Position numbers and translations under genes: made by a program. The notes beneath the pieces were generated by a model. The model did not search any database, was not told the DNA's origin, and was given only the letters and a program-made list of their open reading frames with translations. Of a stretch of 64,000 nt of DNA, positions 10,361 through 57,144 are shown piece after piece (the first letter of the stretch is position 1; every line of letters starts with the position of its first letter). Source of the stretch: Zopfochytrium polystomum (lineage: Eukaryota; Chytridiomycota; Chytridiomycetes; Chytridiales; Chytridiaceae); contig JAIVFJ010000204.1 of assembly GCA_025765615.1 (NCBI GenBank), positions 52,887-116,886 on the forward strand, written 5' to 3'.

Positions 10361-11143
10361 TCACAGCAGCGCCACCGCGCCGACGGCCACCGCGACGATC
10401 GCGGCCGCCGACCCAGCAACCTTCTTGTCCGACGCGCCGGCGCTCTTCGTGCTGGTCGGGGCGGGGGCTGCGGCGGCCGAGCTTGGCGCGGCGGCGGCGG
10501 CGGACGAGGATACGGAAGACGACGACGAGGCGGCCTTCGCTGAGGACGCGGCGGCGACGGCGGAGGAGGTTGTGGCGGCGGAGCCGCCGGCGGCGGCGGC
10601 TTCGATCTGTTGTGCAAGTTGAAATTAGCGGGAACACTTAGGAGGGTAGGGAGGAAAGGTCGTTGTGCAACTGCACGGGTTGGGTACTCACACTGACGCA
10701 CTGTGCTGTCAGGCCCGTGAGCTAGAAGGTGTAATTTTTTCGTTGTAAGTAGAGTAGTCGATCAGCTTTAAGCTCGTCGAGCGATTCCCACCACGCAAAA
10801 AAAAAGAACCCACGCCCCACCCAACACTCACAGTTCCCAAATCCGCAATGCAGCCGCTCCCCATCAAGCAAGTCGTCGCGGCCGACAGCGTCGCGGGGTT
10901 GTCGAAGCTGAGGCAGAGCGTGTTGAGGGCCTGGAGGCTGAGGGTGCCGGAGACGCCGATGCAGGACTTTGTGCAGGACTGGAAGCCGCTGAGGATGCCG
11001 TTGACGGTGTTGACGAGGTCCGAGGTCGCGTCGGGGGCCGGCGCGGGGGCGGCGACGGGCGCGGGGAAGGGGCGCGGGATGGGGAGCGCGGTCGCGACGG
11101 TGGCGAGAGCAGGGAGTAGAGCGAGGAGGGTGGTGGCCTTCAT
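10361..11143 (-). CDS. Small secreted Cys-rich protein with GPI-anchor signal
   Basis: Three exons: 11143-10832, a 30-nt exon 10721-10692, and 10606-10361, giving 195 residues. A signal peptide (MKATTLLALLPALATVATAL) is followed by a Pro/Ala linker and a compact domain with six cysteines (CTKSC, LC, TTC, GC and QC, the last from the 30-nt exon). The rest is a Ser/Ala-rich stalk ending in a hydrophobic tail (SAAAIVAVAVGAVALL), as expected for a GPI-anchored cell-wall or surface protein. The spacing recalls fungal CFEM-like effectors, but two cysteines of the usual eight are missing, so I give no family name. The exon joins are well supported because only this reading keeps the stalk in frame. 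Confidence 0.8.
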
Positions 11144-11433
11144 TTTTGTGGGGTTGGTGTGTGGAGCGAAGTGGGTAGAGGCAGATGATCGAAGAGACGA
11201 AGTTTTTCTGAGAGTGCAACTTCAAGTTAGGATTTTGTTTTGACAACCTTGTTCACCTGTCAGGGTTGTCAAGAAATACGACTAGAATCGGAACAGAAAG
11301 GAACGGAATTCGCGTCTGGAACACCGCCGCGGGATGATATATTGAAGAAAACAGTCACGGCGTCACAGAGGCAGAAATTCTCGAACTACAAGGGCAGATC
11401 GTTCAAATCAAGAACTAAACAAGAAAGCCAGCA

Positions 11434-13828
11434 TCAAAACGGTGTAACTGCAACCCGTCCCGTTTGCGGTGTTGGATCTCCATTGTGGCTTGATCGGAAA
11501 CCGTCAGCAGCCTCCAAGAGCCCCCGCGCAAACTCGTCCGCCACCTTCATGTCCTCCGCTCCGGGTACCCACGCACGCTTCACACGGCCGCCGACCAGTA
11601 CTAGTTCCGCACCATCGCTCCTCGAATTGGCATCGCGCTTTTTCTGCGAGAGGGCCATGACCCCGAGCACACTTCGACGGACTTCTTCGAAACTGAGACG
11701 AATTCCAAGCCGCGCCGACAAATGCGCAACTCGCAACACTACCCCGGACGCCTGCTCAATGGCGGCACCTCGGAGAAGAGAGAGAACGGTGCGTTGGCGT
11801 TGGCGATCGAGAGATGTTGACGATAAGGACGCGGCCACAAGGTGATTGGTGACACTTTGGCTTTCTGGCGTGAGTTCCGTTGCAGCGGGTGCAAGGCCGA
11901 CTTCGAGCACCTTGACTCCGGATTCAATATCCCCAGTGGCAACGAAAGCCTTGACGAGTGCTCGGCTGACAGCGGGATGACACGCACCGCCGGATCGGTC
12001 AACCAATGCAGCTTGCACCCAGAGCAAGCCTTTCTTGTCCTTCGTCATCCCTAACGCACTGATTCCTCTGCAAAGCCGCTCCCTCGCTCGCTTCGACAGA
12101 CTGATCGCGTCTGTGGGTCCCATGTTCGCTTTCGCCACCCACTCTGCCACTGTCTGGCGTACTATTTCCCCGTCGCCTTCTTGGATACGACCGACCACGA
12201 CCCTCTCCACCACCGCTTCTCCAGACTCGCTTGCATTTATTCCGGACTGCAGTGCCTCTTGCAGCTGTGGGCCGACGAGGGAGCCCGGAGTTCTCCAGCT
12301 TCGGACACGCGCCACACAGTCCATTACAAATCCAAGCTGCTCCTTTGTAAGTGACTGCTGCGAGGTTTGGCTGATGTCGGACTCGTCATGAACAAAGTTC
12401 GCAGCGTTCTCAAGACGGACGGAATGAATGGCCGCCCTGACAACGGACGCCTGAACAGCATCCCGACACTTGAGCGATCCGGGTGCAACGCGCTCGATCC
12501 AGGCGACTGCATCCTCAACTCCTGATCGTCCACGGAGGGAGACCATGCCGTCAACAATGACTGCCACTGTTTCTGCATCCAGTCGCGCCGCGGCTATGTT
12601 CGAATTTTTCGCGTTTCCCGTCTCGAACAGCGGAAGGATGGCGTCGACCCGGTTTCGGATCGACGGATCCTCATGAGCAAAGCATAGTCGAAGAACGTGG
12701 TTGAGAAGGTGCGTCGGAATCGGGGATGCCAGGAGCGTGTTGTTGAATGGGGTTGAGGATTTGGTCTTGTACACTGCTTCCAGAGCGCTGACGGCAAACT
12801 CCGTTTCGTCGTTCGTGCACTGAAGGATAATTCGACCGAGGAGGGTAGATGTTGCGGGAAGTCCTGCAGCTCGAGCTTGTCTGAATACTAAAAGAATAGG
12901 GAGGGTCAGCGGAGCAATCCCCCTTAGCATATAGTAGGCTTGGTCACAAACCTTCCACAGCTTGCCGAGCATTTCCGGCGTCGCACAACCCCCGAATCCA
13001 CGCAGCCCAGATTCCACCGCCGTTTGGCAGCGTCGTCTTAATTCCGTAGGAGCTCCGCACCTTGTCCTGGTACTCCTCGAAGAGTCGAGGTATCAGATCG
13101 TCTGGGACGCCCGAGCGAGCGGCGTCCGCAGTAACCGCGCAAAAAGCACTCTCCACAGAACGAGGATGGAAGTGCGCGTGAAACGCTGTATTCTTGGGAA
13201 AGTAGCTGAAAATATGGCGGGCGGCAAGTGTCCATCGATCGGAACTTTGGAATGAGAGGATCGTGTTTACCTCCCCGATCAACTGTAATCGACGGGTTAG
13301 TCAATAAAGGCCCCAATCCAACTCTCATTTTTAAAGGTGCCAAACCTCAGAAGCCGGGCGATGCTCCAAAGTCTTGGTCTCAGAAGCGATAGGCTTGTCC
13401 GGTGTGGCCTCGATCGCGTTCAGAAGCCGTTGCCAACCATCGATCTGACGGCCCGGCCTGACTCCTTGATCCGTCCACCGACTCGCCAGTCCAGTGCTGC
13501 ATGATCTGCTCGTCCGAATCTTGTGGCTGCGCGGGGAGACGGGCTTTTCAGGCGGGAAGACAGATCGCGGGATGGTCGCCACAGCGGGCGCCGTCCGCAG
13601 CGACGATGGATCCTTGGGCGGGTGGAGGAATGCGGGGCGAGGCGGCCGCGACGGGTCCAAGGACGAGAGACGCGCGAACAGGGCGGCGGCCGCGCTCACG
13701 TGCAGTTCGCGGCGGCCGTGAGTTACGCTCCGATGCGGGCGCTGCTGGTGCTGCGGGTGTTGTGGCTGGCACGATCGCCCGCTGGTGGGGTTAGCGGCCC
13801 TTGGTACGCTGCCGGAGGACAAACGCAT
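11434..13828 (-). CDS. Mitochondrial helical-repeat (PPR-like) protein
   Basis: Three exons: 13828-13346, 13282-12952 and 12887-11434, giving 755 residues. The N-terminus is rich in Arg/Ser/Ala with few acids and reads like a mitochondrial presequence. The body is made of paired helices with PPR-like texture, such as GIWAAWIRGLCDAGNARQAV followed by VFRQARAAGLPATSTLLGRI. Proteins of this kind bind organelle RNA and act in mitochondrial transcript processing or translation, but no single orthologue can be named. The intron between exons 1 and 2 shows a clear CTAAC branch site and CAG-type end. The gene is head-to-head with mrp10, whose start codon is 55 bp away. Confidence 0.7.
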
Positions 13829-13883
13829 AGGATCAATCTCGGCGTGGTTTTTTGAGCGGGAAGAAAGAAAACAACCCAACCCA
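13829..13883. promoter_or_regulatory. 55-bp bidirectional promoter region
   Basis: Only these bases separate the start codons of the PPR-like gene (minus) and mrp10 (plus). Both products are predicted to be mitochondrial, so shared control is plausible. One or both transcripts may start inside the neighbouring coding sequence. Confidence 0.55.
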
Positions 13884-14332
13884 ATGCGCACCATTGACAA
13901 GGTCCAGCGGCCGTTGACGATGAGGCCGCCTAACATCGTGCGGGCGACACGCTGTGCGCCAGAGATATCGGCCCTGTTCAATTGCTGGCGCGCCATCGAC
14001 GTCGACGCCGCCGCCTGCGCCGCATCGGCCGCAGCCCTGCGATCGTGCATGCGTGCAGCCACTTCGGCCGCCGGCGGCCCGGGCAGCGCGGCGGGGAAGG
14101 CCAAGAAGGTGCGGGTGGCCAACCCATGTGATCGAACACGACTGACTGATCGCACTTCTCCCCCGTTCCGCTCGTTGTCCTCTCAACCACGCTACGTTCT
14201 TTCTCCCTGACTATGCTCCATCAGCGTGCCGCCGCTCCTCCTCCGGGCGCTCCCGCCGCCCTGTCAAAGTCAACGTCGGTCGATCGGATCAACAGGCTTC
14301 TGGCAAATCTGGCCCGCGGCAAGCAACCATGA
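13884..14332 (+). CDS. mrp10: Mitochondrial small-subunit ribosomal protein mS37 (Mrp10)
   Basis: Two exons, 13884-14108 and 14225-14332, give 110 residues. The protein has the twin CX9C arrangement of the family (CAPEISALFNC and CAASAAALRSC), preceded by a basic stretch (MRPPNIVRATR) and followed by an Ala/Pro linker and a C-terminal VDRINRLLANLARGKQP. Twin-CX9C proteins are imported through the Mia40 pathway, and Mrp10 then becomes part of the mitochondrial ribosome. Without the intron the reading frame runs into unrelated sequence, so the splice is well supported. An in-frame Met 12 codons downstream is a possible alternative start. Confidence 0.85.
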
Positions 14333-14879
14333 TCCGAGAACAGGAAAAGTGCAGTATTGAAAGGAACGATCCAAATGCGGATACTTGGCGGTTTGGGAGC
14401 TTCCACAGGAGGACACATAAACTAAACAAATGAACAATATATCTATTATTGCGGCTCTTTCCCGCAATAGCTTTTTTTAAAAGAAATTGACTATTTGGCA
14501 CCAAAACATTTAGCTCCAAGCCGGTTTTCCGTACGGCTGGAGCTCCTCGAAATATTGCAACGTCGACATGAAACCGCGCACGTCTGCAGGAGGGTACTGG
14601 CAGTTCGCTTGAAAAAAGGAGTCCAGAGAAGCCTTTCCAGAACAAAATGAAAGCTGCTCCTCTCCTCAGTTAGATGGAAACCAAGTGCAGGCAAACACAG
14701 TTAGTCCTGCAATTCCGTCGTAAACTTGTCTGCAAAAGAATAAGGAAAATTTACGGCAAAAGTTGGGCAAACCTACCAAGGTGCGAGGCGTCTGCACGCT
14801 TGTCCCTAGCGCGTCGTCTCCTACTGATCACTTTGTGACCTCGCCACGATCTACCTTTTAGTTTTACGAAACTTGCTCC
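14333..14879. other. Intergenic with an unresolved coding-like stretch
   Basis: Most of this is AT-rich and featureless. On the minus strand 14638-14514 follows an acceptor-like site and reads as about 40 residues (FFQANCQYPPADVRGFM) to a stop, which may be a terminal exon of an unidentified gene or chance. Confidence 0.3.
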
Positions 14880-16430
14880 ATGGATTCTCAGCTCATATCC
14901 TTTGCCGCCGGCTACATGATCTCAGGTGGCACAACGATAGTTTTGGTTGGTACACCTGGTCATCGTGCATCAAGTGCAGCTCGCCTCCGTTGCAGGTTGT
15001 GCTTCCTTGCTGTACTGAGCCCCTCCCACCCTTCGTTCTTCCCGCACCCTCGTACCGGAAAAAAAGGTGACTGCGTATTGGGACTCGATCGCCAAGATAA
15101 ACAACCAAGTCCTCTTATGGTCGATGATCGTGGCCGTGATCCTTCACGCAGAAAACAGCTTTTTGGACGGATTCTTGTTCCTTAAGCTCTCGAGAGACTT
15201 TGATTTTGATGCCTTTTATAGAATACAGTGCTCTGTCGGATGTGAGTCGCGTGCCGCCCGCTAATCCTAGTGGACTGAACTCAAACATCATAATAACGAG
15301 CACAACTCGACGTTTCTCAAAAACAAAAAGATGTCAATATCTTCACGGTGAAACCCGTTCAAACCTTTTTCTGAATCGCTCAACGAAGTCTGCAGATGGT
15401 CCTTTTGACCTTCCACGCGACTTATCGCGCCCTCCTCATTTGCTGCCCGAGGTCTGTATTATTATACGCGATCTCAGGACTGGTTTTCGCAGGTAGCACA
15501 GTCCTTCACATGTAAGCGTCGAGCCTCTTATTTCTGAAGCAAACTTTTTCTAAAAACCAAAACGTTCGAAATCTTGTTCTATTTTCGTCTTTTGCAGCTT
15601 AGGTAAAACGAATACTCCCATTTTGTGCTCTGCGTGTCCTTTAATCTGGAGTCGTGTGGTTAGGGATTACTTTCTACTGGCAGAATTGGCAGGTAAAGTG
15701 CACGAAAAAAGAAAATTGATATCGCAGACGAACCCACTGACGCCGATCCAAAAAAAAAAAATAAAATAAAATAAAATAAATAAAACCAGATCTACCACGG
15801 CACCTCCTCAACGCCCGAAAATACGAACATCGGCTATGTGGTTGCAGTGTTTCACGCCGTTATCATGGTCGTCTTCTTCAGTCTTTCCCAGATCAAAATT
15901 ATTCTCTCCATGACTGTCGTGCACAAAACCAACGTTTCGATTGCGATTGTCGCAAAGGTGGTGATTCGGTGCATCTTGTACGCGTTGCTCTCTGTTGCAT
16001 ACGTCCTGCTTCAATGTATGTAATTCATTCTCTGCTTGCGACTCGTTCGGCTGAAATGGTGGGGTTACATCTCGAAAGGCACTTTCATCAATTGGTCACA
16101 GTACGGTAAATGTATGCTTCGTTTTCCAATCACGGCTAACTCTCATTCATATCTGCACAATCCGATTTAACCACGCCAATTTTATTTTGCTGAAACAAAG
16201 CACCGTGAGTCGCGTATTGCGTTGCCCTTTTGGTCTCCTTTCCAAAACACTCGACCCTTATACAAATATCCATTGCTTCCAATAGCTATGGTGGCAATGT
16301 TTCTCTTAATCTCATCATCGTAATGCTCCTATCCGACGCGGGCATGGTTCGAGACATTGTGGACCACTTCAATAAGAGCAGCCAAATGAGCAGCCTGTCT
16401 ACAAGGAAATCGATCACGCCGTCGGCTTAA
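14880..16430 (+). CDS. Small seven-helix membrane protein with microexons (copy 1)
   Basis: No family recognised. Ten exons fit together in frame: 14880-14945, 15067-15241, 15331-15347 (17 nt), 15396-15511, 15598-15602 (5 nt), 15664-15692 (29 nt), 15790-16015, 16079-16105 (27 nt), 16201-16204 (4 nt) and 16286-16430, giving 269 residues. Hydrophobic segments suggest seven helices, for example FAAGYMISGGTTIVLV, NNQVLLWSMIVAVILH, YVVAVFHAVIMVVFFSL and NVSLNLIIVMLLSDAG. Shared motifs with the copy at 22320-23776 are YWDSIAKINN, YRALLI.CPRS, QNW, IVAKVVIRC and VRDIVDHFN. Exons 5 to 9 have exactly the same lengths in that copy, which is the main support for the tiny exons. The size and helix count resemble a compact 7TM receptor, but that is inference. 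The start codon is less certain than the rest. Confidence 0.72.
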
Positions 16431-16649
16431 AACGACGCAAGACCTTAAAACGTTGACAGACTCTTCCCTTGATCTTGCTTTTTCTTTTGTTCTTCTGTTC
16501 GAGAAAATAGACCAACCGTTCTGGCTGGAACTGAAATAATAAAGTGCTGTACCAGATATTGAAGCGAGTGCACCTTTGTGAAATGTGACTTTAAGTCGAT
16601 CAATCCGAAATTTGATTTCCGCATGGGGGCTACTCGGCTGTAATGTACT

Positions 16650-17440
16650 GAACCCCAGATCTCAACCGCACCTCTATAACCAAACGCGTCGTAGACCAGC
16701 GCGTCCCCCTTTGCCATGGACGCACGCATAACGGACTCGCACGTGAACCCGCGCTTCTCGAGGACGTGGCGGCTGGCGACTTTGGGAGTCATCACGGCGG
16801 AGACTAGATGGACGGCGACAGGCTCTTCGCGGGCGATAAACGAGCCAGTGCGCACACTCTGTCGCGTAGCCGCGGCCCCACGAGTCCTCTGCCAGCTAGT
16901 AGCCGAGCGCGATGGTGCGGTGGCCGAGGTCACCGTCGAAGCTGAAGGAGTGAGTTGGAAGGGAGGGGGGGTATGGACGAACCAAAATGAAGCAGTAAGC
17001 GAGTGCTTCGAGGGTCGCGAGGTGTGATGGATTGGATGAGGCATATGAGGTAGACCGGCACTAACCTGTTGCTGAGGGTGCCGCTTACTCGACCGTCAAT
17101 CTCAATGCAGAGACTCTTCAAGCCTACGCGATTCCCCGGCGGGCACGCCGCGATCCGCTCCGCGGCGGCTTCGCGGGTCTTGTCTTTAATCCACGACGCC
17201 GCATCGTTGAACCTGGTCGGTGGGGTTTTCCCAGCGGAGCACAAAATCTTCAGCTACAATCGATTGGCGCGTTATCGAGAGTGGGCGACTTACATTGATG
17301 GGGCGTCGTCAAACATGTATCGCGACACGTTCGGGCCGGCTGTGGCCTTTGCAGCTGGTCGATGTCCGCGCTGACCGCGGTGTCAAAGAACCGGATCGTG
17401 CAGCGGTTCAATTGGACCGCGAACTGATCGAGGGCTTCCA
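16650..17440 (-). pseudogene. GNAT-family N-acetyltransferase, broken
   Basis: Minus-strand pieces in order match a RimJ/RimL-type GNAT protein: RCTIRFFDTAVSADIDQL, then NVSRYMFDDAPSM before an intron donor, a middle exon ending SLCIEIDGRVSGTL, then HRTIALGY, a TAG stop, LAEDSWGRGYATE, and finally ASRHVLEKRGFTCE with the acetyl-CoA-site helix. At least two frame changes (near 17340 and 16850) and the stop at about 16900 interrupt it. Intact members acetylate protein N-termini or small molecules. Sequencing error could explain one break but hardly all of them. Confidence 0.65.
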
Positions 17441-17977
17441 TCCACGGCATCATTGGGAGTATTTGAGTACTGTAGGTCAGAGAAGTGCGCTCATCTCGAT
17501 TTCAAAGGGGGAATGGGAGCCTTTGTACTGGATGCCCCACAGCGTGCTTCACGGTGCAAACATCCGCCCAAGTCCAGCAGTAACAACCAGCATTGACAAC
17601 CAGCAAAAGGAAACAGAAACTCGGTCTCCTAAAAACATTCAGACAAATTCGTCTCGAAATCGCAGAGGTGGGCTTGGCCAACCTCAACAATGATTTGCAG
17701 CAATACCATACCACACAGAATTTGTGTGATATTGTCCGCACTTGAAGGAGTAGCTCCGTTCAGATATGATTTTGTGATTTCGATGGCAGCTGTTCCACGA
17801 AGCAGTGCAGCCATAACGATAGATGGCTTTTGATCGCTAAAACGTTTCGACCATATGCGAAAACGCGCCAAGACACGTAGAAGTTGTCAAAATCACGAAC
17901 AAAGGAGTCTTCTATCAACTTTACGCTCAATAAGATTCTTCGAAACACGCGGCGTATCTTCGTCAGGCAACCTCAAC
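17441..17977. other. Intergenic, no gene seen
   Basis: AT-rich sequence lies between the acetyltransferase relic and the lone 7TM exon. No convincing frame on either strand. Confidence 0.45.
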
Positions 17978-18048
17978 CACCGTCCACTTGTTTATGGATC
18001 ATCTTCGCGGCGGGCCCCATGATCGCATTCGGCACAACGATCGTTTTA
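17978..18048 (+). pseudogene. Lone first exon of the seven-helix family (copy 2)
   Basis: The stretch encodes FAAGPMIAFGTTIVL and ends at a donor (GTACTT) in the same phase as exon 1 of copy 1 (FAAGYMISGGTTIVL). No second exon follows in the next few hundred bases. The copy at 22320 lacks a recognisable first exon, so this may be its displaced exon 1 or a separate relic. Confidence 0.55.
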
Positions 18049-18499
18049 GTACTTGTTTAAATTCGATTTCCCGTCTCGTTTTCTTTCAACTCTCCAGTGT
18101 TTTTGTTGTCGATCTCGAGGATCTCCACAATCTTCGTTCTTGTCCTTGGTGCGCGTGGATTGTGTGCTGATCGTTGGATCAGTACGATCTAGTATCATGC
18201 AAACAACTCGGCCTGTCGTCCCTCTGTTGTCGCACTTTCTGCTAACATCGTTTTCTGGGAAGCCAGCTTCCTATGTCTATAGCGACCTCGTCACCACCGC
18301 CAATGCGATTTACACTGAGTCAGGCGAAAAGGCCTAATCTGAATCCAACAAAAAGAATTAGATGAAGACAGCGGTGATTCCAGCTTTGCTTTCCTAGGCT
18401 TCGCTGGTGAGGACAATGCGATTAGAACAACCTTCAATGGGCCACATGGTGCGCGGTGGGAGCAGTACCCAGCATTCCCTCTCTCCCGTCATGTCAATG
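18049..18499. other. No supportable gene
   Basis: A short plus-strand frame (ending at 18337) has no recognisable motif. The rest is unremarkable. Confidence 0.4.
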
Positions 18500-18760
18500 G
18501 GTTCAGGGAAATGTTGAACCAGGGCAGCTCACAGCTGCCCCAGGTCAGATGACTTTTGCCTCTGTGTGCAACACCCTTTGTCTGCTGTGCAGAGACCTCT
18601 GTCCAGGCCTCTGGACAGACCTTGGTTGATTTGAAATGTTCATGAAGATTTCAAATCATTTTTCCTATGTGGGGAGACCAGTTGCTGCACAGGGCTGCAG
18701 AGGGCTGCACACAGAGCTTCCTTGATTTGAAATGCTCTGAATATTTCAAATCACCCTCCC
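18500..18760. repeat. Cluster of short hairpins
   Basis: Several close palindromes are packed here: GGGCAGCT/AGCTGCCC at about 18520-18541, a TCCAGGCCTCTGGA-type dyad at about 18602-18615, and two copies of GATTTGAAAT...ATTTCAAATC at 18628-18657 and 18724-18752. The last two are about 96 bp apart. Such structure suits a noncoding mobile element rather than a gene. Confidence 0.6.
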
Positions 18761-18805
18761 TCTGTGGGAAGGGATTTACAACACCTCCCCAGGGTGTTAG
18801 GCGGA

Positions 18806-19023
18806 CGTTGATCACAGGGCACATAAGAGACTGGCTCAGTGAGGAGCATACAACCCAGCTGTTTGTTTCCACCATGCAAGTCTTATGACAGATGGCAACA
18901 CAATGCCGCGCCAAGAAAATTTCAATGTTTGAAGCACCCCTACAACTGTTTTGCTGGTGAAACAAACACCTGGGTTGTATGCTTCCCACTGAGCCAGTCT
19001 CTTATGTGAGCTGTGATCAACGG
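18806..19023. mobile_element. Foldback (MITE-like) element
   Basis: Two arms of about 68 bp are imperfect inverted copies: 18806-18873 and, reversed, 18955-19023. Both contain CATAAGAGACTGGCTCAGTG and the GCATACAACCCAG block. The spacer of about 80 bp is unrelated. No transposase is encoded nearby. Together with the hairpin cluster just upstream this looks like a non-autonomous foldback element, but its outer ends are not resolved. Confidence 0.55.
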
Positions 19024-19227
19024 AAAACAACACTGCGTGTCTGGACATATCTTTTTCGCGGGGTTGTATTTGAATGAGAAGAAACAACGGCAGCCATTCA
19101 TCCAACATTCAGTTCGTGGCAAACAAGAGTTCCGTTGAGCAAACTTTTCGCCTTTATTCATTCGCCACCCTCACCACTTGCAAAGCTAAATGAAAGGAAG
19201 CACTGAGAACGATCTGACCTGGGGTGA

Positions 19228-19915
19228 GGACGACGACAACTCCTGAACAAGCTGGCTTCACCGCTGAAAGCCAATAAGAAGCCGCTTAACGGCTCAACAG
19301 TAAAAGAAGCGGACTGGGAAACTTTCGGGAAGTTCACCGTGAAGAAGATCAACGAGAAACTTTCAGGTATGTTCCTTTATGATTGCTGTTACGCGTGCGC
19401 ATTCTCACTGCACCAAATAACGTAAAACCGCCCAAATAAAGGATTGTGCGGCAGATATGATTAGAGGAGTTCCCAGCTCTTCAAAGAGGAAGGCCCCTCT
19501 GGACGAGCAAGACGACTTGGCGCTTTTGGAAGCGACGAACACCTTTACCCCGTTGCATTCTACAGCCAAGAAAGCTGCGTCAGCCTCGCTGTCCCCTCTG
19601 CCAAAACAATTTGCAAGCAGACTACCTCACGACGATGCAACCCCAGGCCTAGCGTACGTCCTCAACATCTGCAGCGAGGACCAGAAAGCCTACGAACGCA
19701 AAAAGTACCTTATCATCATTCACGTTCTTACGGGGTTCTCCACGACTGTCGCAGTCACAGACGACGACAAAGGAATTTTCGTGCACATGAATCGACAAAA
19801 GAAGAGCACTGGATGGTTTTATTTGGGCCAACGCCTCGGAGTCGACAGGCTACGTCGCTGGAATGGTGCCTGGACCACTGATTGGGGAATCGCTTTCGGA
19901 CAAGCCTTTGTTTGA
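19228..19915 (+). CDS. Hypothetical protein, 5' end uncertain
   Basis: Not recognised. An open stretch ending 19366 (KEADWETFGKFTVKKINEKL) joins across a GTATGT...CAG intron (19367-19454) to a final exon at 19455-19915 in the matching phase. The final exon reads MIRGVPSSSKRKAP, then a Ser/Ala linker, then a compact region with AYVLNICSEDQKAYERKKY, TGFSTTVAVTDDDKG and GWFYLGQRLGVDRLRRWNG. No signal peptide or membrane helix is visible. No start codon was found in frame upstream of exon 1, so an earlier exon is likely, or the gene may be a fragment. Confidence 0.4.
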
Positions 19916-20032
19916 TCGAGACGACGTCGTGCTCTCCGTGATTTTTACTCTCGAGAAGAGCAAGTCCAGCAAACACTAACCTTTTTTGTCGATCTCCCAG
20001 CGAAAGTCGAAGTTCGCATTCAGGTCCCAACC

Positions 20033-20055
20033 TTTTTTTTTTTTTTTTTTTTTTG
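20033..20055 (+). repeat. Poly-T tract
   Basis: A run of more than 20 T bases about 80 bp upstream of the start codon of the ankyrin-like gene. Confidence 0.9.
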
Positions 20056-20136
20056 TTCTTTTTTGTCTTTGGTCTTCTTCCACGAAGAACAAAGCCAGCT
20101 TCTCGTCCGCCTTTTGACGACCACCCGATCTCACGC

Positions 20137-22185
20137 ATGGCAGCGGACCACGAAGACCCACCCCACGGCGACCCGCACGAGGGCGACGCCGACGACGACG
20201 ACGACGACAACGACGACGACGACAACGACGACGACGACAACGACGACGACGACTACGACGACGACGACGGCGAGACTTTCTGGGACCGTTGTTGGGACGC
20301 TCCTCCCGCCAACGAAGGCAGGGACCTCGGCCTCGACGACGCGGAAGTCGAGCATCCTGACAACCCCGCAAGCATCGCCCACTCCGCCGCCGCCGCGGCA
20401 AGCCGTCCAGCCGCGACCGTGGCGCGCGCCGCCACAGCGCCCATGCAGCTGCCCGCGCGCGCCAGCGCCTTCCCGCTGGTCGGCATCGTGTGCAAGTACC
20501 TGCACAGGCCCGAACGGTACCAGCTCGCGACGGTCGCGCGGCTGGCGCAGCACCAGGCGCTCGCGCTGTATGCGATCCCTTCCGCGTCCATGGACCGCGC
20601 AAGCGCCCGCGGCCTCGTCGACCTCCTTCAGTTCCGCCTGCGCAACGCCACGCTGCGCGTCGGCTGCCTCGACCGGCACGAGGCGCTCGCGTGGACGCTA
20701 CACGCCCGCAACGTCCCGACTGCCTCGACCGCCTCCGCGTCGCCGCTCGTCATCGAGTGGTGGGAGCTCGACGGGTACACGCCCGCCGCCATCGCCGGCG
20801 CTTCCAAAAACGGCCACCTGCACGTCCTCCAGTGGTGGCAGTCCAGCGGCCTGCACCTCAAGTTTGACACGCCCAAGATCTTGGAGTTTACAGTTCTCCC
20901 CGCCGTCGTCTGGGCTCGGATTGCCGGGCACGACAAGGTCGTGAGCTGGTGGGAGACCTGCCCCGACCCAGTCGCGCAGAAGCTGGTGGAACGGGCGAAA
21001 TATCCCGAGTATTATGAAATACGCGCCTTGCCCGGGGCGCTGTCTAGTTGGTGCGCCTCGGGCAGCACCGCCGAATTGGACTGGTGCAAACGAAACAACG
21101 TGCGAATCCAAGGCACGTCCGCAACCGAAATCGCCAGAGCCGCCGCCGTCGGTGGTCACATCAACGTCCTCAACTGGTGCAAATCCAATGGAGTCAACCT
21201 CGACAGCCAGTTCACCGCTCTTTGCGCAATCAAGAAAGGGCAAGCCGCCGTGCTGCAGTGGCTCGTGGACAACGAAATATCTACTCCCTGGGACACGCTG
21301 GACGTGTGCGCCCTGGTCGAAAGCGAAGCCTCCTACAACCGCATCCTCCCATGGTGGACGCAGCGCTTTGGGCAGGCACCCGCCCTCACCAGGTCGGATC
21401 TCTCGAACGCGTGTTCCATCCCCATTATGGCGCTTCTCGAGCGGGCCGCGCTGGAATCCGTCGGCAAGCGCATGTACCTCAGCGTTGACGAAATGTCGCG
21501 AGCCGCGCGGAACGGGCACGTGCAAGTGTTCGAGTGGTACCTGAAGCAAGACGCGCCACCACCGGCGGCGGCGGAGGGGCTGGCTGTTGCGGAGGTTCCG
21601 TTCGAGGTGGTGGACGCGGCCAGCGCGGGAGGCCAGACGGCGCTGCTGCAGTGGTTCAAGGACCGCGGCGTCCTGACAGAGTACACGGCCGCCGGGCTGC
21701 AGGCGGCGTGCAAGAACGGCGACGTCGCCGTCCTTGAATGGTGGCTGAACAGCGGGCTCCCGCTCGACCCCAATGCGCCCGACGGGGAGGTCGACCTGGC
21801 GCTGCTGTGCGCCGGCAAGCGGCACGTGCTCGAGTGGCTGCACCGCCGTCGGCAGTCGCCGTCGTCGTCGTCGTCGTCGTCGCCTTCCGGCGCGCCGCCG
21901 CCGCCGCTGCGACTCGAGGTGGACTTTGGGGAGCTGCTGCAGACGAGCGGCGGGGGCGAGGAGGACGTTGTCGACGCGCTGCAGTGGTGGAACGAGAGCG
22001 GCGCGTTCATCAGGTGGTCGGAGCGGTTCGCCGAGTCGCCGCCGGGCAAGGTGTATTTGCTCGAGTGGTGGACAAAGGCGAGGCCGAAGCTGATATTCCC
22101 GTGGAGGAGCAAACGCGCGGGCGCCAGCGAAGCTGAACAGAGGTGGTGGCTGGAGCGCGTGAAGGGAGTGAAGAAAGGCGCGTGA
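20137..22185 (+). CDS. W-rich ankyrin-like repeat protein
   Basis: Single exon, 682 residues. The start at 20137 is chosen because the in-frame Met at 20053 lies inside a poly-T tract. An N-terminal acidic region with runs of Asp broken by Asn is encoded by GAC repeats (20190-20270). A short hydrophobic helix (FPLVGIVCKYL) follows, and then many degenerate ankyrin-like units of the form A.. NGH..VL.WW..SGL, for example ASKNGHLHVLQWWQSSGLHL and CKNGDVAVLEWWLNSGLPLD. The Trp-Trp pair at the end of the second helix replaces the usual ankyrin residues. I believe proteins of this type occur in large numbers in chytrids, but no function is known to me. Ankyrin stacks normally bind partner proteins. 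Confidence 0.75.
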   Translation: MAADHEDPPHGDPHEGDADDDDDDNDDDDNDDDDNDDDDYDDDDGETFWDRCWDAPPANEGRDLGLDDAEVEHPDNPASIAHSAAAAASRPAATVARAATAPMQLPARASAFPLVGIVCKYLHRPERYQLATVARLAQHQALALYAIPSASMDRASARGLVDLLQFRLRNATLRVGCLDRHEALAWTLHARNVPTASTASASPLVIEWWELDGYTPAAIAGASKNGHLHVLQWWQSSGLHLKFDTPKILEFTVLPAVVWARIAGHDKVVSWWETCPDPVAQKLVERAKYPEYYEIRALPGALSSWCASGSTAELDWCKRNNVRIQGTSATEIARAAAVGGHINVLNWCKSNGVNLDSQFTALCAIKKGQAAVLQWLVDNEISTPWDTLDVCALVESEASYNRILPWWTQRFGQAPALTRSDLSNACSIPIMALLERAALESVGKRMYLSVDEMSRAARNGHVQVFEWYLKQDAPPPAAAEGLAVAEVPFEVVDAASAGGQTALLQWFKDRGVLTEYTAAGLQAACKNGDVAVLEWWLNSGLPLDPNAPDGEVDLALLCAGKRHVLEWLHRRRQSPSSSSSSSPSGAPPPPLRLEVDFGELLQTSGGGEEDVVDALQWWNESGAFIRWSERFAESPPGKVYLLEWWTKARPKLIFPWRSKRAGASEAEQRWWLERVKGVKKGA

Positions 22186-22253
22186 GCCACTTGCGTTGAA
22201 ACTATGAAACTCCAACGATCCTGACTATTCCTATACATAAATATGTATACATT

Positions 22254-22267
22254 TTTAACCCTAACCC
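22254..22267 (+). repeat. Interstitial telomere-like repeat
   Basis: Two TAACCC units in tandem (TTAGGG on the minus strand) lie between the ankyrin-like gene and the next 7TM copy. Two units can arise by chance, so this is only a weak sign of an old break or terminal junction. Confidence 0.35.
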
Positions 22268-22319
22268 TTTTTTTGGGAGTTGGGGCGATTTTTCCTCCCA
22301 AAAATTTGAACCCAAGGCG

Positions 22320-23776
22320 ATATCGCCTACTGGGACTCGATCGCCAAGATCAACAATCCGCTCCTTCTGTGGTCCAGGATTCTTGCAATTCTTTGCAAAC
22401 GGTGGGATGCTTTTTTGGACGGCTAAGTGGGACTGATTGCCATTGAGGGCCGACATTCTATCGCTGCCGAACAGCTGTTTGTGGGAGTAGCTTTGTCACT
22501 CGCGGAATCAGCACAAGGGGAGGCCTTGCGTGTGCTACTTGTTCTCAAAGCGTCTCGCGACTTCAACATGGCCGAGTTTAACCGGATGAGGTTCTCCGCT
22601 CTCTGCAAGCCAAACACCAAAACAAGCTTTGCCTTCGTATCAGTAATTGTGCGTTCGTTCCCTTCCCAATCGCTTCAAATGAGAGACATCAACGCATTTA
22701 CAAGGTTGTATCTTCTCGTTGCCATACCCCACTGACCGTCGTCAACGATGAAAAAAAAAGATGGTTCTGTTTCTTCCATGCAGCATATCGCGCTCTCCTC
22801 ATTGTTTGTCCGCGATCCATTCTGTTGAACGTGATCTCGGCTGCTGCCTTTCTCGGCGCTGTCATTGTCCACATGTAAGCTTGGCGCATCTTCGAATTCT
22901 CAGCTGTTTACAAATTTCAACTCCTTTCTCGATACCAAAAGGCTCGGTTAGTCCCCTTCCCCTTCCCAGCGAAAATTATTGTTCCTTGACATAGGAGTAA
23001 CGTATATGCGGCAAAACTGGATGGTGCGGTGCTGCATTGAAGATTGACGAAGGGCATTCATTGGGCCGGCCCAAAACAAAAAGATGAACCACCACAGCTT
23101 CCCAACTGCCGAATTCACGGCCCTTACATACACGATCATTGTTTACGACGCTGCAATGCTGGTGCTTTTCTTTGGTCTCTCGCAATTCGCCGTCATTCGC
23201 TGCATGTCGTCGGTGTACAATGTTAGTGTGTCGTTTCCGATCGTCGCGAAGTTGGTTATTCGGTGCGTCATTTACACCGCACACACCATTGTTGTGGTCC
23301 TCTTTGCCAGTGAGTGCATTTCGCGGTTTTGAATATTTTCTTTTCTTTTTTTTCCCTTTCAATTCTGGGACAGCGATTAACTCGCCTTTTTTCCCCCAAA
23401 GGCACCGTCGTGAACTGGGCGAAATTCGGTGAGGCTATTCTTTAATGTGGGACGCACTTTATGCGATTGTAAACTCAATTCTTTGGTGGTTTCCACACCA
23501 TAAACTTGGCTTTTCCGAGCAGCTCCGTTAGTATATTCCCGCGTTTCCCTTATTTCCTTCACTGATTATCGTGCCCTGAACACAAGCAATTTTTTTCTCT
23601 CTGATTGCAGCTTTGGAAGCGGCATGGCTTTCAACATGTTCTTTCCCATGTTCCTGTCCAACGCCGGCATAGTTCGTGACATTGTGGATCACTTCAACAA
23701 CAGCAGGGGTCGGACAGGGAACGTCTCGACGGCTGTTAGCTCCCAAATGGCGACCAGGAAGTCTATTGCACCGTGA
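22320..23776 (+). pseudogene. Seven-helix membrane protein family, copy 3 (possibly broken)
   Basis: Exon-2 sequence (YWDSIAKINNPLLLWS) starts at about 22329. A TAA stop and about 105 extra bases then interrupt it before LKASRDFN at about 22545. From there everything fits copy 1: exons at about 22701-22719 (19 nt), 22761-22874, 22942-22946 (5 nt), 22995-23023 (29 nt), 23084-23309 (226 nt), 23402-23428 (27 nt), 23523-23526 (4 nt) and 23611-23776, all in frame to a stop. The product ends VRDIVDHFNNS and a Ser-rich tail. Exon 2 would need a GC donor. No first exon is found directly upstream. The extra block stays open after the TAA, so an unrecognised intron could still make the gene functional. 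Confidence 0.55.
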
Positions 23777-24394
23777 GAATCGCGGTGGGACCAGTTTCGG
23801 AGGAGAGCGCTTCCGAAGAGTCCCGTCGAGTTGGACTTCTTTTCTAATCATTTTCATCTTTTGCATGGCCTTCGATCGTTCTCCGACGTTTAAGCAGTTG
23901 TCCATATTTTCTTTTTCCTTTTGCGCTTTGTGTATTTCAGTTTGACACAGCGGACCATGGGAACGGAGCATACAGACGAAGAGAGAGTGACAGAATGGAA
24001 ATTGAAGAGCACGACAAATCCGAAAGGGCCTCCGCGTTTCCTGAACAGCCGTAGCCTCTTTCAAGTTCAACAACAAAAATAAAAAAAGGGGGGCCCGGGG
24101 AAGAGCTGAGATACAATGTAGGAGTATGTGTAAGTGGGAAAAAGAAACACTCGCATCGCTCTCGCTTCTCATCAAGAGAAATTCAAGTGGCGATAATGGA
24201 TGGAGGCCCCTGGGACAAAACCCAATACGGCAAACCTCCAAAAGAAAAAGGCATCCCCCACAGGCGAACGCCCTCGATAAAGAAGGCGGAATCCCTTTGG
24301 TGGAAGATCGGCTGGTGGCCCTAGATTCCACTAGCAGTGCTTTGTTCGTTGCCGCTATTCGCTTCGGAAAACCAGCACTCGCAAGACAACATAT
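23777..24394. other. Intergenic, no gene seen
   Basis: The 3' flanks of the 7TM copy and of the convergent protein kinase meet here. There are purine-rich stretches but no recognisable frame. Confidence 0.45.
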
Positions 24395-25789
24395 TCAGCC
24401 ACGCATCCACGGATGCTCCAGCACGCGGTCCAGCGTCCACCGCTGCTCGGGACGGACCATGGTCATGCCCTCCAAGATCTCGACGCACTCGGGCGGCACG
24501 CGCGGGTCGACGTCGTCGGCGATCGGGAGCGGGCCGGACGCCGGGAACCGCACCGACGACGACGAGGACGATCCGCGGGCGGCCGCGGCGGCCTCGAGGA
24601 TGGAGGGTGCGCGGCCGGGACCGTGGAGCAACGCGAAGAGCAAGACGCCGAGCGCAAACACGTCCGCGGCGAACCCGTCGGCGGCGGCGGGCGTTGAGGC
24701 ACCCTGGCGGCGTGAGTCCTGGAGTTCCGGTGGGGTCGAGTGCGCGGTGCCGTACGAAGTAAGGGTCGGGCGTTTGCCGTCGGCGCCGCGGACGGCGTGG
24801 CCAAAGTCGCAGACGCGGACGTCAAGCGCGTGGTGCCAATGCGGCTGCGGGCGGTCCGCGTGGTCCGGGTCGGCACAGGGGACCGTAACGGACTGCACCA
24901 GGACGTTCTCCTCCTTGATGTCGCCGTGGGCCGTGTTTGCGACCCTGTGGAGGTGGTGCACTGCGGCGACGGCCTTGCGGAAGACCTGGCGGACGTGGCG
25001 CGGGTCCGGGAGCGGGGCGGTTTCGGGGGCGGCGCCAGGGTGTCGGCGCAAGTGTGACTGTTCGTTGTGGTGGCGCTGGGCGATCGACCATGCCCAGACG
25101 TCGGCGGAGCCGGGCGAGACGCGGACGGTGTGGGTGGTGCTGCGGCGCGGGTTGAAAAAGACAAGGAGGTCCTCTGGTGCCGCGGGCGTGGCCGGGTCAA
25201 AGAGCACCGAGAGCCAGTCGCTGCCAAACAGCTCCGTGACCAGGTAAAAGTGGCGGTCGTCCTGCCAGGCGTCGAACGCGTGGAGGAGGCCCTGGTGGGC
25301 GTAGGCCTCGTCGGCGAGGAGCTTGATCAGCTGGATTTCGCGCGGCATCGGCTGGTTTTGCTCGCCGACGTGCTGGGCGGCCTTGTAGATGATCTTGATC
25401 GCGACGGGTTGCTGCTGCTGCTTCGAATCGTCGGCAAGGTGGCCAGCGACGACGACGCCGTTTGAGCCGTAGCCGAGGATGCGGTCGATGCGGAAGGCGT
25501 CGAGGTGCGCCGAGTGGCGGACGGCGTAGCGGACGGCCCTGCGGGCCTTCAAGGTGTTGGCGTCGGTGAAGGCCGCGTCCGACGCGCTGTCGGCGAGCTC
25601 GAGTAGACGCAGCGATTCGGCGGAGACGATCTTTGGGCGGGCAAAAGGGCGGCGATCGGGCGAGGCGGGCGGGGTGGAGAGGGCAGCGTTGGACGAGGCG
25701 TAGCCAGAGTCTGCACGGATCGACATCGAGTGGCCGTCGTGGTGGTGGTGGTGGTGGTGGTGGTCGTGCGGGTTGAGAAGGGCGAGCAT
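24395..25789 (-). CDS. Serine/threonine protein kinase, divergent
   Basis: Single exon, 464 residues, no introns. The N-terminus has a His run (encoded by GTG/CAC repeats at about 25738-25765) and a Ser/Pro linker. The kinase domain begins with YGSNGVVVAGH, then VAIKII, PREIQLIKLL, catalytic loop HGDIKEENVL, VCDFGHA, and YGTAHSTPPEL where APE is normal, followed by FAADVFALGVLLFALLHGPG. The Arg of HRD is Gly, yet the catalytic Asp, Lys and Asn are all present, so activity is expected. Arg-less kinases are usually not regulated by activation-loop phosphorylation. It resembles fungal kinases around the PAS-kinase and Ran1 groups, but I cannot place it more closely. The gene is very GC-rich, unlike its flanks. 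Confidence 0.8.
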   Translation of the reverse strand: MLALLNPHDHHHHHHHHDGHSMSIRADSGYASSNAALSTPPASPDRRPFARPKIVSAESLRLLELADSASDAAFTDANTLKARRAVRYAVRHSAHLDAFRIDRILGYGSNGVVVAGHLADDSKQQQQPVAIKIIYKAAQHVGEQNQPMPREIQLIKLLADEAYAHQGLLHAFDAWQDDRHFYLVTELFGSDWLSVLFDPATPAAPEDLLVFFNPRRSTTHTVRVSPGSADVWAWSIAQRHHNEQSHLRRHPGAAPETAPLPDPRHVRQVFRKAVAAVHHLHRVANTAHGDIKEENVLVQSVTVPCADPDHADRPQPHWHHALDVRVCDFGHAVRGADGKRPTLTSYGTAHSTPPELQDSRRQGASTPAAADGFAADVFALGVLLFALLHGPGRAPSILEAAAAARGSSSSSSVRFPASGPLPIADDVDPRVPPECVEILEGMTMVRPEQRWTLDRVLEHPWMRG

Positions 25790-26126
25790 TATGGCAGTTT
25801 GGATTGGTTTGGTTTGGAGCTGTTTTGTGAGTGCAGCAACGGGGCGATCCAGCCAAGTTACGTTTGGAGGAGAGGGGGTTGTGGGGGAAGGAAAGGTTGG
25901 GGAAGGGGACCACAGGGCTGTGGGGAGTATATGTACTTTGTCGTCGTGTTAATAATATGAATGTATTATATGTGTGTGCACACACACACTGCTGGAAACG
26001 GAGGCGGAGCGGGAAAATCGGACAACGAGGAGTCGGAGGCCGAACCCCTGCCTGATTCATAAGCGGAGAGTTGCGGGCGAGCTTGTCTGTCGCTCGCTCA
26101 GTCACACACACACCCACACACACACA

Positions 26127-26169
<43 letters not shown>

Positions 26170-26725
26170 CCTCTCTCGCTCTTACTTCGTTCAGAATCGT
26201 GGAAAATCCGAATTTCAAATATTTAATAATAATTGCGGTGGCCTTCCATTTTTTCATCGGAATGACGCTGCGATCACGATGGGAGGGAATCACCCATTTA
26301 TCTATCGGCCCCGCAGCCACACAGAGCCTTTGCTGCTTCTGCTGCTGGTGCTGCTGCTGCCGGAAAGGGACGGGACGGACTGGGCACTCCCATTGAATTC
26401 CACCCCCCTTTGCTTCTCTTACAACGTCCAGCCGCGCACCCACCCCATGCGCGGTGAGCGTCGGGCTGTCACTTCGGTTTCCACCACCCACCCCAGATTA
26501 CCATCTTTCCTCGAGGCCACGTATCGGAACTACTTGCTCGCTTGCCATGGGGGGGCTTGTGCCCAGACAGAATCGCCGCCCCCAAAAAACTTTCGCTTTT
26601 TCGGCATCGCCGTCGTACGTGGCCTCACCAGAGCCTTTTGAACCCGTCTGCGGCGTTTTGTTACCGCCCTCATACCGGGGGAAGTGGAGCGAGGGCTTTT
26701 TTGTTTGCACCGTGCGCGTTGTGAG

Positions 26726-26772
<47 letters not shown>

Positions 26773-26926
26773 GAGAGAGACAGACAGGCGGACTTCCGTC
26801 TGAGCGGATTCTCGGAAGTGAATGCAGAAACGCTTTCCTCGGGGGTGAATATTTGCACGGATTTGCCGAACCCGAACAGCGGCCTTAAGTTTTCTTTCTC
26901 TCCATCCTCCACTCTCCCCCAACCAA
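25790..26926. other. Divergent intergenic region with microsatellites
   Basis: This separates the kinase (minus) from the universal stress protein (plus). It contains (CA)n at about 26103-26127, (CT)n at about 26128-26176 and (GA)n at about 26731-26782. Both promoters should lie in it. No gene seen. Confidence 0.55.
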
Positions 26927-27749
26927 ATGGCGTCGTCGGCGCCCGCCCCCACCTCCGTCCACGAGGACGTCGTCCACCCGCACGAGACGCACGCAGCATC
27001 CGGCGCGCCCCCCGCCCGCGTCATTGCGATCGCCGTCGACGCCTCGGCGTACTCCGAGTACGCCTTCAACTGGACCATCCAGAACGTCGTGCGGCCTGAT
27101 ACGGACCAGATCGTGCTGCTCAACGTGCGCCCGCTCGTCTCGTTCCCAGTCGCGTTCGAGGCCATCAGCGCGGAGGCCCTGAAGCAGTTTGAGGATCTCG
27201 ATGCCGTGGTGAGTGCGCTTTGACTGAGGGATGGGCTTCAAGAACGACCATCTGATCGACGCCTGGCTCCTCCCAGAACCGGAAAGAGTCGCACGACCTC
27301 CTCCGCGCTTACGCCGCCAAGGTCCCCGCTCTCAAGTACGTACCTCTCATGAATCACTCCCCCTATCGCTTTCGCATCTTGCCTCTTGTTTCTGTCCTCA
27401 CAACAACTGATCGTCTGCACCGACCAACCAGGTACAACATCCGCGGCGTCGCGCTGCGCGGCGACCCGCGCGACGAGATCGCTTTCAAGGTCGAGGAGAT
27501 CCGCGCCGACATGCTCGTCGTCGGGTCTCGCGGCCTCGGCGCCGTCAAGAGGGCGTTCCTCGGATGTAAGCGTTTTGTGGCCCCTTGCCCCGTCCTACTA
27601 ATGGACCGCGCATCAACCTTGTTTCGCATTTGTTTTTTTTTCCTTTTCTCTCTCTTACTCACCCAGCCGTGAGCGACTACCTCGTCCGCCACCTCCACCT
27701 GCCCGTGATCGTTCCGCGAAAGTCCGAGGACGAGGAAATCAAGGGATGA
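26927..27749 (+). CDS. Universal stress protein (UspA family)
   Basis: Four exons: 26927-27208, 27277-27335, 27432-27565 and 27667-27749, giving 185 residues. The fold is recognisable from the first strand (RVIAIAVDASAYSEYAFNW), DQIVLLNVRP, and the nucleotide-binding end GSRGLGAVKRAFLGSVSDYL, which fits the G-x2-G-x9-G-[ST] ATP motif, followed by HLHLPVIVPR. Family members bind ATP and help cells survive starvation and oxidative or heat stress. The conserved motif crosses an exon junction, which supports the last splice. The N-terminal 30 residues are a disordered extension. Confidence 0.92.
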
Positions 27750-33210: not shown

Positions 33211-33292
33211 GACAACGTGGCCGAGTGGTTAAGGCGACAGACTTGAAATCTGTTATCCTCTGGATGCGTAGGTTCGAACCCTGCCGTTGTCG
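33211..33292 (+). tRNA. tRNA-Ser(TGA)
   Basis: Acceptor stem GACAACG/CGTTGTC with discriminator G, D-arm GTGGCCGAGTGGTTAAGGC, anticodon arm with ACTTGAAATC (anticodon TGA), a long variable arm as expected for serine, and T-arm GGTTCGAACC. No intron. The 3' CCA is not encoded. Confidence 0.95.
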
Positions 33293-36718: not shown

Positions 36719-36790
36719 TCCCAGATCGTCTAACGGTTAAGATTCCGCCCTTTCACGGCGGCGATCGGGGTTCGATTCCCCGTCTGGGAG
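36719..36790 (+). tRNA. tRNA-Glu(TTC)
   Basis: 72 nt with acceptor TCCCAGA/TCTGGGA and discriminator G. The anticodon stem CCGCC/GGCGG closes the loop CTTTCAC, giving anticodon TTC. T-arm GGTTCGATTCC. No intron. Confidence 0.95.
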
Positions 36791-47415: not shown

Positions 47416-47486
47416 TGCAACAGCCGGGAATCGGACCCGGGTCTACCGCGTGGCAGGCGATAATTCTACCACTGAACCACTGTTGC
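47416..47486 (-). tRNA. tRNA-Gly(GCC)
   Basis: 71 nt on the minus strand. Acceptor GCAACAG/TGTTGC, D-arm GGTTCAGTGGTAGAATT, anticodon loop CTGCCAC (GCC), T-arm GGGTCCGATTCCC, discriminator A. No intron. It sits between reductase copies A and B. Confidence 0.93.
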
Positions 47487-57055: not shown

Positions 57056-57144
57056 CCGACCATAGCTCAGTTGGAAGAGCGCATGACTGTAAAGGTACTC
57101 AAACCGTTATCATGAGGTCCCCAGTTCGAACCTGGGTGGTCGGA
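57056..57144 (+). tRNA. tRNA-Tyr(GTA) with intron
   Basis: Acceptor CCGACCA/TGGTCGG with discriminator A. D-arm TAGCTCAGTTGG, anticodon stem CATGA/TCATG with GTA in the loop, interrupted by an intron of about 16 nt one base after the anticodon (canonical position), and T-arm CAGTTCGAACCTG. Confidence 0.93.

Follow-up and report, generated by a model that had tools for sequence, protein, structure and literature searches.

A 64-kb stretch of the genome of Zopfochytrium polystomum, a chytrid of the order Chytridiales, contains two copies of a gene family encoding predicted seven-helix proteins, in which the coding sequence is divided among exons as short as 4 and 5 nucleotides (nt). This stretch (C204:52887-116886, from an 80-Mb genome in 761 contigs) is referred to as the window and provides the coordinates used below. 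Copy 1 spans 14880-16430 and consists of ten exons of 66, 175, 17, 116, 5, 29, 226, 27, 4 and 145 nt. Its introns are GT-AG throughout, with a weak first donor (GTTGGT). When rebuilt from the sequence, the spliced exons amount to 810 nt, or 269 codons and a stop, with zero internal stops. The first-pass annotation of this DNA had proposed ten exons joined in frame, including one of 5 nt at 15598-15602 and one of 4 nt at 16201-16204, and the places, the splice sites and the 269-codon frame were all recovered. The exons of copy 1 are as follows, with transmembrane helices abbreviated to TM.

14880..14945, + strand: exon 1, 66 nt, start codon, N-terminus and TM1 (spliced model; first exons of paralogs are 63-72 nt)
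15067..15241, + strand: exon 2, 175 nt, TM2 and the beginning of TM3 (spliced model, family alignment)
15331..15347, + strand: exon 3, 17-nt micro-exon ATGTCAATATCTTCACG (equal size in public models P0001-P0004, P0008 and P0012)
15396..15511, + strand: exon 4, 116 nt, end of TM3 with an H..YR motif and most of TM4 (spliced model, family alignment)
15598..15602, + strand: exon 5, 5-nt micro-exon CTTAG, part of residues 125-127 in TM4 (spliced model, blind edge test)
15664..15692, + strand: exon 6, 29 nt, end of TM4 (spliced model, family alignment)
15790..16015, + strand: exon 7, 226 nt, TM5 and TM6 (its product served as genome query)
16079..16105, + strand: exon 8, 27 nt, loop between TM6 and TM7 (spliced model, family alignment)
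16201..16204, + strand: exon 9, 4-nt micro-exon CACC, part of residues 221-222 (Ala-Pro) immediately before TM7 (spliced model, blind edge test)
16286..16430, + strand: exon 10, 145 nt including the stop, TM7 and C-terminal tail (spliced model)

Copy 1 is a predicted intact gene for a 269-residue protein. Its 17-, 5-, 27- and 4-nt exons, each bordered by GT-AG, are micro-exons in the sense of internal coding exons of up to 27 nt with canonical splice sites. By computation, the reading frame is lost when the 5-nt, 4-nt, 17-nt or 29-nt exon is skipped. The 5- and 4-nt exons, along with those of 17, 27 and 29-35 nt, are, as read from the alignment of family members, coding parts with positions and phases that are fixed in strongly diverged members. 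The micro-exon anatomy deduced in this way is very probably correct.

Detailed work covered 45 regions, the two of the window plus 43 from the rest of the genome, with a purpose-written splice-aware aligner. As this aligner was possibly biased toward the exons it had been shown, a blind edge test was carried out. The edges of the flanking exons were set by profiles of the large exons alone, regions with GT and AG at these edges were kept, and an exon of k nt was sought between them. The edge profile was built from nine members that also sit in the test, and the regions failing it (27 of 45 for the 5-nt exon, 23 for the 4-nt exon) were left out of the counts. Of the 18 regions that passed for the 5-nt exon, 17 contained one of the form AG-N5-GT; for the 4-nt exon the result was 20 of 22. 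When only representatives sharing less than 65% gap identity are considered, the 5-nt exon was found in 8/9, a number reached by 0 of 2000 dinucleotide shuffles (mean 1.1, maximum 5). The corresponding figure for the 4-nt exon was 10/11, again attained in none of the 2000 shuffles (mean 1.5, maximum 7). In the 5-nt gap, every other length up to 30 was confined to at most 3/9 representatives; in the 4-nt gap, chance produced 11 nt in 6/11 representatives and 8, 13 and 23 nt in 5/11. The 5-nt exon is also visible by eye, uncounted, in the edge-test failures C62, C155b, C29d, C41b and C173. The view that the agreement between copies is hard to get by chance is thus supported by the blind edge test and the shuffles.

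Two other lines were rejected. Earlier counts of 12/12 and 8/8 were dropped, as they drew solely on copies in which the micro-exons had been placed by the aligner beforehand. Intron loss was set aside as direct proof, since the long frames of C331 (313 amino acids, aa) and C154 (295 aa) appear to run across introns and not to be fused exons. A clean intron-loss copy, with the 5- or 4-nt piece fused to its neighbour, was found in none of the 45 regions.

The codon pattern at the 4-nt exon is informative in its own right. In 18 of 20 tabulated close-family rows this exon is CACC, CTCC, CGCC, TTCC or TCCC, with a G ending the 27-nt exon and C, A or G following. These rows are read as GCN or GTN and then CCN, encoding Ala (Val in C41a and C41b) followed by Pro. 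Apart from Ala/Val, the changes are at third positions, across the flanks of two introns. Random matches are unlikely on this account, as they would not obey codon rules. The C78 member (L013, C78:46500-54000) has CCCC with correct splice letters; its last exon begins one base out of register at this point, which suggests either a decayed gene or a sequence error.

The main alternative for the exons themselves is that the 4- and 5-nt pieces are chance AG-N-GT matches, spanned by real introns with shifted donors or acceptors. Public gene models bear on this in both directions. Protein searches identified twelve public hypothetical proteins of Z. polystomum as family members, of which eight were mapped to genomic DNA, and 4/8 hold a 4- or 5-nt exon. 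P0008, which is 19% identical to P0002, is modelled with exons of 14, 46, 175, 17, 119, 5, 35, 205, 27, 4 and 169 nt. The P0002 model has the 17-, 5- and 29-nt exons, that of P0001 the 17-, 27- and 4-nt exons, and P0006 the 5-nt exon. These public models are not proof of transcripts.

A number of observations weigh against the micro-exon reading. P0003, P0004 and P0005 are modelled with neither ultra-short exon and with different junctions, as the chance-match explanation would have it. P0001 replaces the 5-nt exon, and P0002 swaps the 4-nt exon for a donor 4 nt downstream; P0006 stops before the 4-nt exon and P0012 before both. In the blind test, the 5-nt exon is missing from C204up (1/18 testable), where its acceptor AG, present in the near-twin C331, is gone. 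The 4-nt exon is missing from the near-identical pair C16 and C226 (2/22 testable). Two of the 20 codon-pattern rows misfit, namely C517b, where the aligner settled on a different donor, and the doubtful C170 (CCAT). The letters of the 4-nt exon are different in the distant subfamily, with CATG in the P0008 gene and CTTG, GACT, GAGT, GAAT or GATG elsewhere, so Ala-Pro is not retained there. Both tiny exons were obtained from about a third only of the 21 regions examined with a second profile, described below, the rest being without them.

Against the chance-match explanation, the shifted junctions vary from model to model, whereas the place and phase of the micro-exons are constant in the 17/18 and 20/22 testable regions. 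The position 4 nt downstream that is used in P0002 is not GT in copy 1, copy 2, C29b, C41b or C332. The close-family 4-nt exon varies mainly at wobble positions. Moreover, the 5-nt exon is annotated in P0002, P0006 and P0008 and the 4-nt exon in P0001 and P0008, independently. Chance matches are accordingly considered a very unlikely source of these exons, and fixed coding micro-exons are the preferred reading. As a separate observation, the near-twins L046 (C204:4800-7500) and L045 (C331:49200-52000), one of which is without the acceptor AG of the 5-nt exon, form a natural test case for skipping.

The public models also qualify two statements of the first-pass annotation. It had described the family as previously unannotated, which holds for copy 1, with no matching public protein among the search hits (the best was 53% identical), but not for the family, given the twelve public proteins and the tiny exons in half of those mapped. 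It had also stated that gene finders miss such exons; this is often, but not always, the case, some public models containing them. Several models break exactly at the micro-exons, showing why families of this kind can get overlooked.

The introns of the family have a median length of 72.5 nt (120 introns in 13 models), and intron definition is proposed because they are so short. Under this mechanism, each short intron would be recognised as a unit and the introns would be spliced out in turn, and a 4- or 5-nt exon would never be bound on both sides simultaneously. Sequential intron removal around a tiny exon is suggested here by analogy with the proposal made for a one-nucleotide exon of Arabidopsis (PMC4674806). 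The introns themselves lend the mechanism no clear branch-point signal, as CTRAY was found in 30/120 introns, compared with a shuffled mean of 22.9 and a maximum of 34. A different possibility is that the micro-exons are regulated, so that skipping shifts the frame and truncates the protein, acting as a switch on receptor production. Skipping in copy 1 would indeed lead to a stop at residue 228 (without the 5-nt exon) or 233 (without the 4-nt exon), and a regulated fungal micro-exon has been described in Xlr2 of Trichoderma (PMC11121469). The splice sites of the micro-exons look ordinary by eye, however, and constitutive splicing can be explained by the short introns alone. Regulation of this kind is judged improbable.

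The family proved far larger than the two copies in the window from which it had been proposed. The product of the 226-nt exon gave 30 genome matches (E 0.001). The union with searches using three distant members comprises 117 related places on 63 contigs, at thresholds of E 0.001 for the 226-nt exon search and 0.01 for the distant-member searches, some repeat or weak rows being omitted. This figure includes near-identical pairs (C204/C517, C16/C226, C47/C200, C4/C203 and C331/C414), which are possibly alleles or recent duplicates, and is a count of places, not of distinct genes. Part of the family is arranged in tandem, e.g. four members inside 9 kb on C234.

The complete 175-17-116-5-29-226-27-4 run was obtained from 12 of 29 close-family regions. 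Most others give a portion of it, and six (C29c, C16, C226, C9, C170 and C173) show little of it. When exons are counted at any internal position in these regions, the 5-nt exon appears in 21/29, the 4-nt exon in 21/29 and the 17-nt exon in 23/29, numbers that include some spurious exons, such as the 17-nt exon of C155b. C87, only 30% identical to copy 1, retains 175-17-113-5-29-226. A second profile, built from P0008, P0009 and P0010, recovered 17-119-5 and 27-4 in 6/21 regions, which are C247a (the P0008 gene), C247b, C90, C9, C134 and C109; C15c has the 5- and 4-nt exons in a poorer model. Homologues with the same exon pattern, which the first-pass annotation had expected in related genomes, were sought and found within the Z. 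polystomum genome. Public-protein searches returned no homologue outside Zopfochytrium; these searches need shared 5-residue words and a length range, and one of them scored the 7993 best candidates and dropped the true member P0002. With such limited sensitivity, absence from other species is not established.

Copy 2 lies downstream of copy 1 and comprises the following features.

17994..18048, + strand: exon 1 remnant with an 8-nt deletion (comparison with relatives)
18250..22285, no strand: stretch of ~4.0 kb inside intron 1, missing from three related segments (L009, L010 and L021 compared with the window)
22317..22604, + strand: exon 2, carrying small indels and an inserted repeat that break it; donor GC, against GT in the relative (alignment to relatives)
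22424..22533, no strand: dispersed repeat of ~110 bp within exon 2, GCTA at each end (comparison and genome search)
22686..22704, + strand: 19-nt exon, equivalent to the 17-nt exon with a 2-nt insertion (alignment to C148b)
22761..22874, + strand: 114-nt exon, equivalent to the 116-nt exon minus 2 nt (alignment to C148b)
22942..22946, + strand: 5-nt exon GCTCG (splice-site check)
22995..23023, + strand: 29-nt exon (splice-site check)
23084..23309, + strand: 226-nt exon (splice-site check)
23402..23428, + strand: 27-nt exon (splice-site check)
23523..23526, + strand: 4-nt exon CTCC (splice-site check)
23611..23776, + strand: last exon including the stop, TM7 and tail (start from splice-site check; stop codon read from the sequence)

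The exons of 5, 29, 226, 27 and 4 nt were located as claimed, in the order of copy 1. It had further been argued that the 19- and 114-nt exons match copy 1 through their sum of 133 nt. These sizes were found, but the nearest relatives of copy 2 (C29b, C148b and C517b) have the 17+116 layout in splice-aware alignment. Compared with C148b, copy 2 has an insertion of 2 nt and a deletion of 2 nt, so that the sum records two offsetting indels and no shifted boundary. Copy 2 is, as its disrupted exons indicate, a decayed family member and no second working gene.

Segments on C517, C29 and C148 are related to the copy 2 region, being 88-96% identical in pieces and without the ~4.0 kb. More widely, pieces of the window from 10617 to 27061 recur on these contigs at 88-96% identity, from which it follows that segmental duplicates or alleles exist in the assembly. 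Within the 4.0-kb stretch, positions 20053-22185 form a long open frame in which ankyrin repeats are recognised (Ank_4, E 3.5e-11). The ~110-bp repeat has at least 40 genome matches, itself included, the others being 79-91% identical (40 of 76 candidates scored), and an Rfam scan around it gave zero matches. It may be a small mobile element. Elsewhere in the window are transfer RNA genes for Ser (33211-33292), Glu (36719-36790), Gly (47416-47486) and Leu (57056-57144).

The state of copy 2 raises the possibility that the family as a whole is decaying, repeat-like sequence and not a set of working genes. Copy 2 is clearly broken, C78 has its frame problem at the start of the last exon, C204up has lost an acceptor, and several models are partial. 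Selection is also less clear in close pairs, with ratios of non-synonymous to synonymous substitution (dN/dS) of ~0.45 for W1/C29a and 0.51 for C193/C155a. Decay on this scale is nevertheless highly improbable, as copy 1 is intact, it departs from C517a solely at third positions (4 differences), and dN/dS is far below 1 for C59/C200 and W1/C193.

The proposal of a compact seven-helix, receptor-like product agrees with AlphaFold models of two paralogs, through which copy 1 was judged. Both have seven membrane helices, and a fold resembling that of G-protein-coupled receptors (GPCRs) or rhodopsins is predicted with good confidence. In VIA-align, GPCRs and microbial rhodopsins match both models, and adiponectin receptors match the first. 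The charges of loops 1, 3 and 5 and of the tail fit an N-terminus outside and a C-terminus inside, while loops 4 and 6 are mixed. Copy 1 would have GPCR topology, with the N-terminus out and the tail in.

Assignment to the GPCRs has points to its disadvantage. The structural matches to GPCRs and to microbial rhodopsins are within 1 Z of each other, and the tool itself warns of high scores for helical bundles. In ten scanned proteins (3 + 7), no match exceeded the curated cut-off of a Pfam family; the GPCR families of Pfam include 7tm_1, 7tm_2, 7tm_3, STE2, STE3 and Dicty_CAR. No PDB sequence passed 1e-3. THH1/TOM1/TOM3 (PF06454) reached 13.5 bits in P0010, against a cut-off of 25, and none in the other scanned proteins; a genome search for it gave no hit, though neither did its controls. 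The proteins could thus be seven-helix proteins with another job, such as a microbial-type rhodopsin, a PAQR-type hydrolase or a transporter, and the VIA-align matches to microbial rhodopsins and adiponectin receptors speak for this. Retinal proteins require a lysine in TM7, and PAQR/adiponectin receptors have conserved zinc-binding histidines. No lysine is present in the first 20 residues of TM7 in 13/13 aligned sequences, and the expansion, tandem arrays and divergence of the family would suit receptors better. Another job is therefore regarded as a minor possibility, with a receptor role preferred.

Large, partly tandem seven-helix families resemble chemoreceptor families elsewhere. Chytrids swim and sense their surroundings, and G-alpha matches above the cut-off group into 12 clusters spread over 10 contigs in this genome, those on C62 and C332 being perhaps duplicates. 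The family proteins would be surface chemoreceptors, perhaps of the swimming zoospore, signalling via these G-alpha proteins. G-protein-coupled chemoreception is rated somewhat better than even, and the zoospore as its site is a tentative suggestion. Taken as a whole, an intact copy 1, a large and partly tandem micro-exon family, splicing by intron definition and a role as G-protein chemoreceptors are likely to be the best explanation of the data. A bolder proposal, considered doubtful, is that the family constitutes its own class of GPCR-like chemoreceptors at more than 100 genome places, descended from an ancestor with the 17-, 5-, 27- and 4-nt exons, and that the frame-breaking 5- and 4-nt exons may serve as a checkpoint restricting receptor production to a cell stage with the appropriate splicing state, e.g. 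the zoospore. If this were true, hundreds of ultra-short exons would need correct splicing in this fungus.

If the family proteins are made, the splicing machinery of the fungus has to join pieces of 4 and 5 nt. Exons of this length challenge splicing models that require recognition of both exon ends. Within a single fungus the family supplies many natural replicates, in which diverged introns flank the same tiny exons, so that the sequence needs of ultra-short exon splicing could become readable by comparison. It also indicates that swimming, environment-sensing fungi have a seven-helix family for which Pfam holds no model. Among open-licence PMC papers on chytrid micro-exons, chytrid zoospore chemotaxis GPCRs and Zopfochytrium, none was found to deal with the family by title or the start of the abstract.

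As putative receptors, the proteins differ from the class D GPCR Ste2 (PDB 7ad3, 7qbc) and the class T receptor TAS2R14 (PDB 8rql), with 7-9% identity over aligned residues, no sequence-level match and no Pfam domain in common. A published scheme distinguishes 17 fungal GPCR classes, defined with searches based on hidden Markov models and with GPCR-related Pfam domains (PMC12842992). Like these classes as outlined there, the family comprises seven-helix fungal receptors, here putative, with lineage-specific expansion. It differs in lying above no Pfam cut-off, a contrast that leaves the machine-learning candidates of that paper out of the comparison.

Closer parallels exist at the level of the exons. 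A one-nucleotide exon has been reported in Fusarium CYP621A (PMC12940212) and another in Arabidopsis APC11, for which combined intron definition and stepwise (recursive) splicing was proposed (PMC4674806). As in these genes, the ultra-short exons of Zopfochytrium are essential to the frame and are missed or misassigned in annotation. In the accounts given of them, CYP621A and APC11 are genes of other kinds with single ultra-short exons, which are backed by experiments or transcripts. In Zopfochytrium, exons of 5 and 4 nt occur together with those of 17, 27 and 29 nt in one gene, family-wide, and are known from sequence comparison. The conserved micro-exons of plants are similarly tiny, conserved and often misannotated, and differ, as summarised in that study, in kingdom, in the genes concerned and in their support from RNA sequencing (PMC8831610). 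Ultra-short exons are therefore already known; what is new is that two of them are fixed across a large receptor-like family.
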